The notes under the pieces are model-generated. The model was not told the origin of the DNA, did not search any database, and worked only from the letters and a program-made list of their open reading frames with translations. A stretch of 64,000 bases of DNA, taken from Brevinematales bacterium (GTDB taxonomy: Bacteria; Spirochaetota; Brevinematia; Brevinematales; Thermospiraceae). The stretch covers positions 399,245 to 463,244 of the forward strand of contig JAOADA010000001.1 in the NCBI GenBank assembly GCA_026417555.1, in the 5' to 3' direction. Positions 35,180 through 48,138 of the stretch are shown one piece after another (the stretch's first letter is position 1; each line of letters starts with the position of its first letter). A program made the translations under genes and the position numbers.

Positions 35180-35207
35180 TTGACTTTCTTCTATTTTGCC
35201 TTATGAT
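35180..35207 (+). promoter_or_regulatory. Predicted promoter of the GH57 gene
   Basis: TTGACT (35180-35185) and TATGAT (35202-35207) are separated by 16 bases, with each box matching five of six consensus positions. The predicted start site is about 24 bases before the ATG at 35238. Confidence 0.65.
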
Positions 35208-35237
35208 GATAGCATACAAAATCCTGAAGGAGCCTCT

Positions 35238-36833
35238 ATGAAACAAGGATACTGGATGTTAGTTCTCCATGCACATCTGCCTTTTGTGCGTCACCCAGAG
35301 TATAACGATGTGATTGAAGAACGTTGGCTGTATGAGGCTATTACAGAGACATATATTCCTCTCTTATGGGTATTTGAACGGCTTGCAGAAGAGAATATCC
35401 CTTTTCGGTTAACCATGTCTTTCACTCCGCCCCTGGCAAACATGCTCACTGACCCTCTCTTGCAAGAACGGTATGTTCAGCATATTGAAAAGCTTATTCA
35501 ACTGGCAGAACAAGAGGTAGTTCGAAACCGCTTTGTCCCTGAATATCTCACTCTTGCTCAGTTTTATCTTGAGCGTTTTAAGAGGGTACGAAAAAGCTTT
35601 GTAGAAACCTACAAAAAGGATCTGGTAAAAGCTTTTCGTCGTTTCCAAGACCTCGGATTTGTAGAAATCCTGACAAGTGGGGCTACCCATGGTTTTTTCC
35701 CCTTGCTGAGTGTTCATCCAGAGGCTGTGAGAGCACAAATCCAGGTAGCTGTTCGGGATTACGCTCGGCATTTTGGGCGATCCCCTCGGGGTATATGGAA
35801 CCCAGAGTGTGGTTACTATCCTGGTCTTGAGAATCTTCTGAAGGAAGCTGGTATTCGTTTCTTTTATACGGATACCCATGGCATACTTCATGCCTCTGAG
35901 AAACCCAAGTATGGGGTATTCGCCCCTATGCAAACACCCAATGGAGTAGCGTATTTTGCCCGTGATGTGGATACTTCCCATACGGTATGGTCTTCCACAG
36001 AGGGGTATCCTGGGGATGGGGTATATAGAGAATTTTATCGTGATATTGGCTTTGATCTGGAGCACCATTACATCAAACCCTATATTCATGAAAGTGGTCT
36101 CAGGGTGGCTACGGGTATCAAGTACCATAGAATCACCAGTAAAGAGACCCCCATGGATCACAAACTTCCCTATGATATTGAACTTGCCCAACAGAAACTT
36201 CACGAGCATGCCCAACACTTTGTGTATGGGCGCGAGCAGCAGATAGAGTATGTGGCTTCGCTCATGGATCGTCCCCCTGTGGTGGTTTCCATGTACGATG
36301 CGGAACTCTTTGGTCACTGGTGGTTTGAGGGACCAGATTTTTTGTACCATGTGATCAAAAAAATAGCCACCCATCCCAAGATGGGAATGATCACAGCCCC
36401 TGAGTACCTTGATATGTTTCCGAACAATCAGGTGGCCACCCCCCCACTCTGTAGTTGGGGATACAAGGGATATTGTGAATTCTGGCTCAATGGAACAAAC
36501 GATTGGATTTATCCCCATCTTCACAAAATGGCAGAAAGGATGCGAGAACTGGCCAACACCTATCGTGGTAACCAAAATCCGCTTGTAATCCGAGCCCTGA
36601 ACCAGGCAGCACGGGAACTGTTACTTGCCCAATCCTCTGACTGGGCCTTTATCATGCGCACAGGGACAATGGTGGATTATGCCGTCAAACGGACAAAACT
36701 TCACATCTCCCGTTTCAACAGGTTGTATGAGATGATCCATATCCAGGTATCTATCGATGAAGCGTGGCTCTCAGAGGTTGAAAAACGGGACAATATCTTT
36801 CCAGAGATCGATTTCAGGGTTTACGCCTCTTAA
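35238..36833 (+). CDS. GH57-family (DUF1957) 1,4-alpha-glucan branching enzyme
   Basis: This is a glycosyl hydrolase family 57 enzyme that likely makes alpha-1,6 branches in glycogen. The protein is 531 residues. The first catalytic-barrel motif is LHAHLPFVRH. The nucleophile region is WNPECGYYPG, and the acid/base region is SMYDAELFGHWW. The helical C-terminal DUF1957 part has the usual SSDWAFIM motif. Thermophiles and many spirochaetes carry such enzymes, but other members act as amylases. GGAG lies 6 bases before the ATG. The gene stands alone and faces the WYL relic and helicase. Confidence 0.9.
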   Translation: MKQGYWMLVLHAHLPFVRHPEYNDVIEERWLYEAITETYIPLLWVFERLAEENIPFRLTMSFTPPLANMLTDPLLQERYVQHIEKLIQLAEQEVVRNRFVPEYLTLAQFYLERFKRVRKSFVETYKKDLVKAFRRFQDLGFVEILTSGATHGFFPLLSVHPEAVRAQIQVAVRDYARHFGRSPRGIWNPECGYYPGLENLLKEAGIRFFYTDTHGILHASEKPKYGVFAPMQTPNGVAYFARDVDTSHTVWSSTEGYPGDGVYREFYRDIGFDLEHHYIKPYIHESGLRVATGIKYHRITSKETPMDHKLPYDIELAQQKLHEHAQHFVYGREQQIEYVASLMDRPPVVVSMYDAELFGHWWFEGPDFLYHVIKKIATHPKMGMITAPEYLDMFPNNQVATPPLCSWGYKGYCEFWLNGTNDWIYPHLHKMAERMRELANTYRGNQNPLVIRALNQAARELLLAQSSDWAFIMRTGTMVDYAVKRTKLHISRFNRLYEMIHIQVSIDEAWLSEVEKRDNIFPEIDFRVYAS

Positions 36834-36845
36834 TCGCCAGGTTTT

Positions 36846-37082
36846 TTATTCGTGGGGTGGGACTTTCTGGATCTCACGAATTCTGTCCACACGAAAGGTT
36901 TTTTCCTTTTATGGCTCTGAACATCATCCCCGAACCCCTTCAAGGGTTTTGCCATAGTATTGTATCTCTCCAACAAAAAGGGACTGGATTATTCGCCAAC
37001 TTTCAGTATCATGGCACTTGAGGTATAGAATCCTGAGGGAAAGTTTCTTCTCAATAGCCCCTTGGATGAGGTGTTTTTTATT
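36846..37082 (-). pseudogene. Decayed WYL-domain remnant with two in-frame stops
   Basis: Reading leftward in one frame, the sequence begins NKKHLIQGAIEKKLSLRILY, then VGEIQYYGKTLEGVRG, then TGA, then CSEP, then TAA, and then KEKTFRVDRIREI before a final stop. The AIEKK...ILY start and the TFRVDRI end are the typical borders of a WYL domain, and both sides of the stop codons align in the same frame. There is no start codon with a ribosome-binding site. It lies immediately behind the Pif1-like helicase stop at 37084, so it is either the lost C terminus of a longer helicase or a separate regulator. WYL assignment is from memory. Confidence 0.6.
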
Positions 37083-37083
37083 A

Positions 37084-38439
37084 TCAAGGGGATGAGGGTT
37101 GGGGTGTCTGATTGGACCCTTGTGACGTCATAAATGAGACAATTTGTTGGTCAACAAAGACATAATTCTTTTTAAAAGGAGCCTTGAGTACCAAACCATC
37201 CAGACTTGTCACACGGCTCAAAGCCACATAGGTTTGTCCACTGGCAAATGCCCCACGTGTCATATCCAGGATAACATGGCTAAAGGTTTTCCCCTGGGAC
37301 TTGTGCACAGTAATTCCCCAGGCTAAGCGAAGAGGAAGCTGGGTAAAACTCCCAGCAGGTGTTCTTTTCACGTCCCCAGTTTCGGTTATCTCGTACCGAT
37401 AGGATGTCCAGGTCCAGGGGGAAACCTCTACCTGTTCTCCATTTTCCAGTTCTACCTCGACACTTTCTTGTCCACAGGAGAGAACCTTTCCAAGGGTACC
37501 GTTTACCCAGACTCCCGATGGTTCATTGGTGAGAAACATCACCTGGGCACCCACTTTGAGAGTGAGATTTTCCTCTGTGGGCATATCTTTTTGAGGAAAG
37601 TCGTCCTGAATTTTCCCTTGGTAGCTTTTGGCTTTTGATGAAAGTTTCTCAAGCTCTTGAGAGTTGATTTTGTCCACAATCGCATTGTGGGTCGTCAGAT
37701 AGATGTAGGGCGTATCCGCTGGTGGCTCAAAGTCGGGAACACAGCGCTCATTCAAAAGAGCGATATCCTCATTAGTAACCTGACCATGTCGTATGTGGTT
37801 TAAGATATGGACAAACCTCTCATCATTTTGACGGTAAACTCTTTCAAGTTCATAGAGTCTCATCTGCAACGAGGGATAACACTTCGCAGAGAAAAAATAG
37901 GGAGACTCATACTTCAAGAGAAAGAGTTCTTTCTCTTCCGTTTTCAAAACAGGGGGAAGCTGGTAGAGATCACCGATAAAGAGAAGTTGTATCCCCCCAA
38001 AGGGGAGAGAGGCACGCTCTTTGTCCTTTTTCCTTTTGCTTTTGGAAAAAACATCCCGTGTTATTTTCTCTATCATATCGAGGAGGTCAGCCCTCACCAT
38101 CGAAATCTCGTCCACCACAAGGATATCGGTACGTGAGAGAACCTCATACAATGCGTCTCCTCGTCTCTCAAGAATTTGGGGGATATTGTTTTCTGTATCG
38201 GCAGGAAAAATACCATAAAAAGAGTGAATAGTTTGTCCCTCAACATTCAGGGCAGACACCCCTGTAGGGGCAAGAACAACCGCCCTTTTCCCCCCTTGCT
38301 GAAGAAAATAACGAAGAAAGGTAGATTTTCCAGTGCCGGCCTTTCCTGTGAGAAAGATATTTTCTCCCTTTTCAAGGGCCTCAAGCGCTGTGCGAAAATC
38401 TTCATGAATCTCGATTTGCATATTTTCTGGACTCTTCAC
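37084..38439 (-). CDS. Pif1/RecD-like superfamily 1B DNA helicase
   Basis: This 5'-3' helicase has 451 residues. Walker A is FLTGKAGTGKSTF (about 28-40), followed by LAPTGVSALNVEGQTIHSF. Walker B is VVDEISMV, then GGIQLLFIGDLYQLPPV, an inserted SH3-like part, and the C-terminal WGITVHKSQGKT and YVALSRV. The start is GTG at 38439, overlapping the ychF stop by four bases (GTGA); an ATG six codons later has no better site. The WYL relic immediately follows its stop. Confidence 0.9.
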   Translation of the reverse strand: MKSPENMQIEIHEDFRTALEALEKGENIFLTGKAGTGKSTFLRYFLQQGGKRAVVLAPTGVSALNVEGQTIHSFYGIFPADTENNIPQILERRGDALYEVLSRTDILVVDEISMVRADLLDMIEKITRDVFSKSKRKKDKERASLPFGGIQLLFIGDLYQLPPVLKTEEKELFLLKYESPYFFSAKCYPSLQMRLYELERVYRQNDERFVHILNHIRHGQVTNEDIALLNERCVPDFEPPADTPYIYLTTHNAIVDKINSQELEKLSSKAKSYQGKIQDDFPQKDMPTEENLTLKVGAQVMFLTNEPSGVWVNGTLGKVLSCGQESVEVELENGEQVEVSPWTWTSYRYEITETGDVKRTPAGSFTQLPLRLAWGITVHKSQGKTFSHVILDMTRGAFASGQTYVALSRVTSLDGLVLKAPFKKNYVFVDQQIVSFMTSQGSNQTPQPSSP

Positions 38440-39533
38440 ACAGAAAATCTTACAATCATTACATCTCCATCCTGCATCACATAGTCTTTGCCCTCAAGGC
38501 GTATGAGACCCTTGTCTCGGAGGGCTGCCCAGCTCCCATGCTTTACAAAATCCTCATACGACACCACCTCAGCCCGAATAAAACCCTTTTCCATATCTGA
38601 GTGAATAACCCCTGCCGCCTGGGGGGCTTTTGTCCCCTGGGGAATCGTCCAAGCACGGGTTTCTTTTTCTCCAGCAGTAAAGAAGGTGATAAGCCCAAGG
38701 AGTTTGTATCCCTCAATGATCAGACGTTCCAAGCCACTTTTCTCAAGTCCAATACCCGTGAGGTATTCTTTTGCCTCGAGGGGATCAAGCTCAGAGAGTT
38801 CTTGTTCAATTTTGGCAGAGAGAGCAAGAATATCGGCTTTCAAAGACTGGGCTTTGGTCTTCAGTTTGGTGTAGAGAGGATTATTTTCATAGGTGAGAAT
38901 CTCTTTTTCACTCACGTTGGCCACAATGAGAAGGGGTTTCGCTGTGAGAAATTGATACGCATCAAGGGTTTTCTTTTCCTCTGGAGTGAGAGGGATATTT
39001 TTGATGAGTTCCCCCTTCTCTATCTCGGATTTGACCCTTTCCAGAAGCTCTACTTCGTTTTGAGCCTCTTTGTTCCCAGCCTTGGCCATTTTGCTACGCT
39101 TGGCCAGAATGTTTTCTATAGTCTCAAGATCTTTGAAGATCAACTCCATGTTAATGATCTCTACGTCCCGAAGAGGATCTACCTCTCCAATATGGATCAC
39201 ATCCTTATCTTCAAAGAGGCGTACTACCTGCACAATGGCATCAACTTCACGAATGTGGGAAAGAAATTGATTTCCAAGGCCTTCTCCCTGACTTGCTCCT
39301 TTGACAAGCCCAGCTATATCCACAAAGTGTACCGTCGTAGGAGTGACCTTTTTGGCCTCGACTAGTTTTGCCAAGGTATCAAGTCTCTCATCAGGCACAG
39401 CCACAATACCCACGTTGGGATCAATAGTACAGAAGGGATAGTTTGAACTTGCTACCCCAGCTCTCGTCAAAGCATTAAAAAGAGTTGATTTTCCTACATT
39501 GGGGAGTCCCACAATGCCACAACTAAAGCCCAT
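38436..39533 (-). CDS. ychF: Redox-regulated P-loop ATPase YchF
   Basis: This is an Obg-family ATPase associated with ribosomes. The 365-residue protein has the P-loop [15 protein letters not shown], the switch segment [20 protein letters not shown] and VANVSE in place of NKxD. The C-terminal TGS domain has [14 protein letters not shown] and [11 protein letters not shown]. It is almost universal in bacteria. Its stop overlaps the start of the Pif1-like helicase, so the genes are probably cotranslated. Confidence 0.97.
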
Positions 39534-47361: not shown

Positions 47362-47392
47362 GCTTTTGAATTGATCTTTCTTTTTCTGAAAT

Positions 47393-47421
47393 TTGATATT
47401 TTCTTTGATTGTGGGTATGAT
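47393..47421 (+). promoter_or_regulatory. Predicted promoter of the ABC/LolA-like export operon
   Basis: TTGATA (47393-47398), 17-base spacer, and TATGAT (47416-47421), each five of six with consensus. The predicted start site is about 21 bases before the ATG at 47449. This marks the operon start separately from the upstream FlgD-Ig-like gene. Confidence 0.65.
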
Positions 47422-47448
47422 ATATTCAAAGAAATACAAGGAGAACAT

Positions 47449-48138
47449 ATGCCTCTCATAGAAGTGAAGAACGCCAAAAAAGACTATCCACTAGGGAAAA
47501 CGCTTGTCCATGCCCTTCGTGGGGTGAGTCTCACCGTCGAACAAGGGGATTTTTTCTCCATTGTTGGTCCCTCCGGAAGTGGAAAAACCACCCTTCTCAA
47601 TCTGATTGGATGTATCGATCACCCAACAGAGGGAGAGGTTATCATTGACGGCAAAAACATCTCCCATCTCAGTGACAAAGAACTCACCAATATTCGTCTT
47701 TATAAAGTAGGGTTTATCTTCCAAACCTTTAATCTCATCCCTGTACTCAATGTGCGCGAGAATGTAGAATTCCCACTTCTTTTGATGAAGGACAAAGCAG
47801 GTCTCACCAAAAAAGAGATAAATGAGAGGGTCGAAAAACTCATTGAAGAGGTAGGGCTCAAGGATTTCATCACACACAAGCCTGCGGAATTGTCGGGAGG
47901 TCAACGCCAACGTGTGGCTATTGCCAGAGCCCTCGTCACAAAACCCGCCATAGTGTTGGCTGATGAACCTACCGCCAACCTTGACTCTGAAACAGGAGAG
48001 AATATCCTTGCCATTATGCGACGACTTAACGAGATAGAGAATACGACATTTATTTTCTCCACTCATAACCCTGATGTCCTCAAGTATGCCAAACGGATTA
48101 TCCGTCTCAGAGATGGCCTCATTATGAGTGAGGAGTAG
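47449..48138 (+). CDS. ABC transporter ATP-binding protein (LolD/MacB type)
   Basis: This ATPase of 229 residues energises an FtsX-type permease. Walker A is GPSGSGKTT, the Q-loop is FQTFNL, the signature is LSGGQRQRV, and Walker B is VLADEPTANLD. The H-loop is STHNPDV. The family includes LolD, MacB-type ATPases and FtsE. The start at 47449 has AAGGAG 5 bases upstream; a longer frame has no such site. It is the first gene of a five-gene operon ending in a barrel, with gaps of 3-15 bp. Confidence 0.95.
   Translation: MPLIEVKNAKKDYPLGKTLVHALRGVSLTVEQGDFFSIVGPSGSGKTTLLNLIGCIDHPTEGEVIIDGKNISHLSDKELTNIRLYKVGFIFQTFNLIPVLNVRENVEFPLLLMKDKAGLTKKEINERVEKLIEEVGLKDFITHKPAELSGGQRQRVAIARALVTKPAIVLADEPTANLDSETGENILAIMRRLNEIENTTFIFSTHNPDVLKYAKRIIRLRDGLIMSEE

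Follow-up and report, generated by a model that had tools for sequence, protein, structure and literature searches.

Probable recent loss of the C-terminal WYL domain from a Pif1-family helicase in the Brevinematales

We describe a gene for a Pif1-family helicase that, judging from sequence comparisons, very probably descends from a Pif1-WYL fusion helicase and has lost its C-terminal WYL domain in one lineage. The gene lies in a 64,000-nucleotide stretch of a Brevinematales contig (the window), and the broken remains of the WYL domain still follow it. For the comparison within the genus we used three genomes: the window's own (G000), G001, and G002. Among these, the loss is seen in the window's lineage only. 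Pif1 helicases with and without WYL are both already known. What is new here is a recent loss within one genus, with the relic still in place. In a search of mostly open-access literature, we found no report of a Pif1 protein that had lost WYL and left a relic.

The helicase gene is on the minus strand at 37084-38439, with its start at 38439 and its stop codon at 37084-37086. It encodes 451 amino acids and ends just past the helicase core. The match to Pfam's PIF1 (E = 4.4e-32) scores 111.9 bits, against a cutoff of 25.9 bits, and 95 of the 99 near-invariant columns of the core are kept; the match covers the helicase motifs, including Walker A and the HKSQG motif. Upstream, on the same strand, is a YchF GTPase (38436-39533; YchF-GTPase_C, E = 2e-39). 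On the other side, convergent with the helicase, is a GH57 enzyme with a branching-enzyme C-terminal domain (35196-36833, plus strand; Glyco_hydro_57, E = 2e-40; BE_C, E = 2.6e-40). Three stop codons stand in tandem in the helicase frame, at 37078-37086 of the minus strand, as seen in both the sequence and its translation. In relatives, this site is the linker between the helicase and WYL.

The earlier note had described a minus-strand frame of 79 codons that is interrupted by TGA and, five codons on, by TAA. Translating 36846-37082 reproduced it: the TGA is codon 53 (36924-36926), the TAA is codon 58 (36909-36911), and a final TAA is at 36846-36848. The note had also called this frame WYL-like. 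With X in place of both stops, the match to Pfam's WYL (PF13280) is weak (E = 5e-4) and its 20.4 bits do not reach the curated cutoff of 21.8 bits, but a profile for Pif1-linked WYL domains, which we built from 73 tails while leaving out the window's own genus, gave a strong match (E = 2.9e-22, 74.5 bits) that covers profile positions 9-85. A second, overlapping piece of the site also matched this profile (E = 7.4e-10). Elsewhere in the window, nothing did better than E = 2.9, and the best match in the reversed window, which served as a control, had E = 0.84, so the match to WYL is not due to chance. These results confirm that the frame holds a WYL relic and not an intact WYL domain. A scan of the relic frame against NCBIfam gave no match, and a search of the whole genome with PF13280 (E ≤ 0.001) did not have the relic among its matches. 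An Rfam scan of the window gave no match at the gathering scores, and our search for a promoter or terminator near the helicase-WYL junction found nothing exceeding shuffled sequence.

The WYL frame is open upstream beyond the helicase's stop codon, at least to 37094, so the relic frame (36846-37094, minus strand, from its translation) overlaps the end of the helicase gene. The two frames are offset by one base. The earlier note had placed the relic within 2 bases of the helicase stop, which understates the link between the two. In a DNA alignment with G001 and G002, the window's linker differs in length from theirs by a single base, shortly before the triple stop, and the alignment places this difference beside a short run of C. 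The WYL stretch is otherwise co-linear with the WYL regions of G001 and G002, except for a small gap near its very end. WYL is not in frame at the C-terminus of the window's helicase, whose ORF ends at 451 amino acids.

In both relatives, the same locus holds one continuous Pif1-WYL frame, of 533 amino acids in G002 and 523 amino acids in G001, between the same YchF and GH57 neighbors. The C-terminal part of the GH57 enzyme is on the same side of the helicase at both loci (L002 and L003). The earlier note had proposed, as its first option, that a C-terminal WYL domain used to be part of the helicase, which was then shortened, and had suggested comparing it and its downstream region with close relatives; the longer, WYL-ending helicases that we found in the same place bear this out. 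It had also said that its proposal would be contradicted if many relatives shared the stops and none had a WYL-bearing homolog, or if a profile search gave no WYL match; we found WYL-bearing homologs as well as a match. As a separate observation from the comparison of these genomes, an ABC-transporter ATPase of 255 amino acids (47371-48138, plus strand) corresponds to a frame of 269 amino acids in G001 and 523 amino acids in G002. The frame in G002 has a second ATPase joined in front, which could mean that G002 has a fusion or that the frames differ.

At E ≤ 0.001, G001 and G002 have one WYL match each, which is their Pif1 protein. We found no WYL match in the whole genome of G000 at this threshold, using a search that missed the relic too and that weak matches could escape. 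The window's helicase is the only Pif1 match in G000 (1 match, E ≤ 0.001), so no WYL-bearing back-up copy was found. A DNA-level search of the genus with the relic gave only the relic itself as a meaningful match; the site in G001 had E = 0.28 and the site in G002 was not listed.

Intact Pif1-WYL proteins are also present in two other families of the order (G003, G006, G009, and G011 from one, which we call f2, and G007 from another, f3). We did not find a Pif1 of this kind in G004 (f3) or in the four genomes from family f4, with only a weak match of 54 residues in G008. In G003, G006, and G011, the Pif1 gene was flagged as having a TAG inside. We considered recoding and rejected it, as all three genes have a clean frame of about 510 amino acids; translation shows that in G006 and G011, the flagged TAG falls before the start of the helicase. 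Similar flags were raised for G001, for a second Pif1 copy in G006 (G006b), and for G244 and G321; the ORF in G001 is nonetheless clean.

To survey the phylum, we scored at most three candidates per genome and kept those with E ≤ 1e-60. This gave 18 copies of the window's kind of Pif1, from 17 of 392 genomes. WYL is at the C-terminus of eight of them and is absent from the other 10, including the window's. We then built a tree of 33 cores, from 17 of the 18 phylum copies (L009, which is cut by its contig, was left out) and 16 of 18 other loci chosen from the 80 available. The window's helicase is sister to G002 (support 100/98), and these are joined by G001 (100/99) and then by G007 (94/86). 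All three have WYL, which places the window's helicase among Pif1-WYL proteins. Given this nesting, the simplest reading is that the ancestor had WYL and that the window's lineage lost it.

Across the 33 cores, the well-supported branches force at least three changes of WYL state, whether gains or losses. G006b (L013, G006:C3:95018-96343) is without WYL and shares its genome with an intact copy, G006a. It branches basal to its genus's WYL-bearing copies, in a group of five with support of 100/100, and it probably represents a separate loss. Like the window's enzyme, it has four changes at the 99 near-invariant core columns. In the stretches that we examined around the WYL-less copies of G006 (L013) and G036 (L010), a profile search found no WYL relic. 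Elsewhere in the phylum, G034 has a WYL match with an in-frame TAA (G034:C38:108859-108996), which is possibly another broken WYL gene. Also, three loci (L028 from G203, L029 from G162, and L035 from G316) have Pif1 cores with other C-terminal stretches, of 287 to 389 amino acids, in place of WYL.

A scan of genome contigs with the window's helicase alone did not confirm any relative, but a scan with an alignment as the query did. The 80 best of 577 loci, from many phyla, match through most of WYL; these were picked with a WYL-bearing query and so give no measure of the frequency of WYL-less copies. The matches (L055-L134) carry labels that include Patescibacteria, Omnitrophota, bins from sediment and groundwater, and other phyla. 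In PMC9964779, the emphasis for Pif1-WYL proteins is on thermophiles, and the range of these matches is wider. Going by their labels, Pif1-WYL seems not to be limited to thermophiles, at least in a set selected for resemblance to a query with WYL.

We then asked how far the WYL stretch has decayed. In this stretch, sequence identity is 48% for the window and G002, 38% for the window and G001, and 61% for the two relatives; in the helicase core, the corresponding values are 72%, 67%, and 71%. Across the three genomes, the excess divergence of WYL therefore belongs to the window. To identify near-invariant positions in WYL, we kept 75 of 82 distinct tails (those with lengths of 125-189 in which the motif YLK or FLK is present). 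The seven that were dropped are the window's truncated tail, two that lack WYL (L010 and L013), and four WYL-like tails in which the motif is missing (L081, L083, L122, and L126), so the conservation of the YLK/FLK motif is overstated. At the 16 positions that are at least 90% conserved in the 75 intact tails, the window has four changes, against one in G002 and none in G001. Of the intact tails, 71/75 have two changes or fewer, and one has four. One of the positions that changed in the window aligns with R495 of DdPif1 (from Deferribacter desulfuricans) in an alignment to structure 8bnv, taken here to be DdPif1, and R495 is among the arginines that PMC9964779 names as possible contacts with single-stranded DNA.

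Substitution rates alone do not show relaxation in the relic. The ratio pN/pS is 0.48 against G002 and 0.46 against G001, as compared to 0.41 between G002 and G001, although these ratios are rough because synonymous sites are near saturation (pS of 0.62-0.76). Of the 46 changes in the relic that are unique to the window, 23 fall at third positions, which is more than one third (p = 0.014, one-sided binomial test); the core of the window's helicase has the same share (Fisher p = 1.0). Because pN/pS in the relic is close to that of its relatives and the third-position bias is kept, a recent loss fits: the loss of WYL looks recent, with most of the branch spent under constraint.

The helicase core itself is whole and still constrained. 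Its reading frame is open throughout the 451 codons, and its pN/pS is 0.27 against G002 and 0.32 against G001, much as between the intact relatives (0.26). These results stand against the idea that the entire gene, core included, is becoming a pseudogene, which we consider unlikely but the most credible of the alternatives to the loss of WYL alone. In its favor, the core has a longer branch than its sister, with a length of 0.30 as compared to 0.12 for G002. The four changed columns among the 99 that are near-invariant also point this way, as 77 of 79 other cores have three or fewer changes; two of the four are non-conservative, one of them at the very start of the linker. In the last part of the core plus the linker, two of 25 near-invariant columns are changed, against at most one in 75 others. 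First- and second-position changes in the core are in excess relative to the sister (Fisher p = 0.007) if the genome's own rate is ignored.

To take that rate into account, we compared the helicase to its neighbors. We began with 23 ortholog triples and set aside four shadow frames, in which most changes were at first codon positions (three of the frames are antisense to a listed gene), which left 19 including the helicase. The core has 51 replacements unique to the window, against 28 in G002; the 18 neighboring genes together have 355 and 311. The helicase's excess is not significant (Fisher p = 0.07), and four of the 18 neighbors have a higher ratio of window to sister replacements than the helicase does. 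We therefore rejected the acceleration as proof of relaxed selection, although mild decay of the core is possible.

An error in the assembly or sequencing, with an intact Pif1-WYL gene in the actual genome and with the offset and the stops as artifacts, is very unlikely. The one-base difference in length beside a short run of C is the sort of lesion that an error could explain, and our comparison is of three genomes of the genus at the assembly level. However, some 180 bases contain three lesions. Two are in-frame stops in a stretch that is otherwise free of changes in length, and the contig is 689 kb long. Four of the 16 near-invariant residues of WYL are changed, and the entire WYL stretch is excessively divergent. 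Given the three lesions and the lost near-invariant residues, an error in the consensus is unlikely.

The earlier note had offered, as a second option, that a regulator gene decayed in place beside the helicase, and this found no support. WYL proteins apart from the helicases include transcription regulators such as PafBC, DriD, and BrxR, which share the WYL family (PF13280) with the relic. These regulators are defined by a DNA-binding part in the same gene. Here, the helicase core directly precedes the relic, and a Pfam scan of the relic and the helicase (for the helicase, the best 25 of 34 families) did not find a regulator's DNA-binding domain; the relic corresponds to a helicase tail. A separate gene would account for the difference between the WYL and helicase frames, but in G001 and G002, this stretch is fused in frame to the helicase between the same flanking genes, with no separate gene, and the relic's match to the profile of Pif1-linked WYL tails spans positions 9-85. 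We give a separate regulator hardly any credence. Equally implausible is recoding to yield a full-length fusion: the WYL frame is open save for two stops and keeps its third-position bias, but producing the fusion from one message would take a frameshift plus readthrough at two different stop codons, in spite of three tandem stops in the helicase frame and the loss of near-invariant WYL residues, and neither G001 nor G002 needs recoding.

The known Pif1-WYL helicases include TePif1 from Thermotoga elfii, DdPif1, and SsPif1 from Sulfurihydrogenibium, and the window's locus shares with them its core, the place of the linker, and the WYL sequence. It differs in that stops interrupt its WYL, which is also out of frame and, going by the sequence, would not be made. 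The solved structures that are nearest to the window's helicase by sequence are 8bnv, which we infer to be DdPif1 from the numbering of its arginines, and 8bns, which is SsPif1 by elimination; both chains also align through the WYL domain of G002. Residue 439 of the window's helicase aligns with residue 429 of 8bns and residue 421 of 8bnv, and just 12 more residues precede the stop. The core constructs described in PMC9964779 are residues 1-438 of SsPif1 and residues 1-430 of DdPif1. By this alignment, the natural end of the window's helicase appears to be near the cuts that crystallographers chose in related Pif1-WYL enzymes.

Pif1 helicases without WYL include BsPif1 from Bacteroides and ToPif1 from Thermus oshimai. 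These are core-only proteins with chains of 433 amino acids (5fhd and 5ftb) or 444 amino acids (6s3e), similar in length to the window's 451 amino acids. The labels BsPif1 and ToPif1 follow the PDB codes in PMC9964779, which also states explicitly that ToPif1 lacks WYL. Unlike these enzymes, the window's helicase is nested among Pif1-WYL proteins in the tree and has a WYL relic behind its gene.

According to PMC9964779 and PMC6628001, which in part report it second-hand, the WYL domain of T. elfii Pif1 binds the 5' end of single-stranded DNA and regulates and couples the ATPase and unwinding activities. The same sources give the WYL domain of DdPif1 the same role with single-stranded DNA, as modeled. 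Deletion experiments on T. elfii Pif1, cited in PMC9964779, have addressed the role of the WYL arm.

Returning to the loss of WYL from a fusion helicase, we propose the following history. The ancestor would have encoded a Pif1-WYL fusion in one continuous frame, flanked by YchF and GH57. In the window, the one-base offset in the linker makes the reading frame stop where the helicase core ends. The orphaned WYL stretch holds two further stops and has changed at near-invariant positions, and most likely the relic has no function. The product would be a WYL-less Pif1 of 451 amino acids. From its intact core, and by analogy to WYL-less Pif1 enzymes elsewhere, we infer that it would still be a 5'-3' helicase. 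The loss of WYL would be the loss of an accessory surface for binding single-stranded DNA, and by analogy, binding may be weaker or differently coupled.

For annotators, this locus is a caution: a WYL match behind a helicase's stop codon can be a lost tail rather than a regulator. More tentatively, we speculate that Pif1 proteins have shed WYL repeatedly and that the core then adapts. The window's loss would be a recent instance, with a core that is changing faster than its sister's, and G006b would be an independent loss. If so, the WYL arm may tune helicase activity without being essential, and its loss may be tolerated or even favored by selection. The window's helicase and its relatives form a natural domain-deletion pair in one genus: their cores are about 70% identical, with and without the WYL arm. 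Such a pair is suited to studying whether cells require the arm and how a core manages in its absence.
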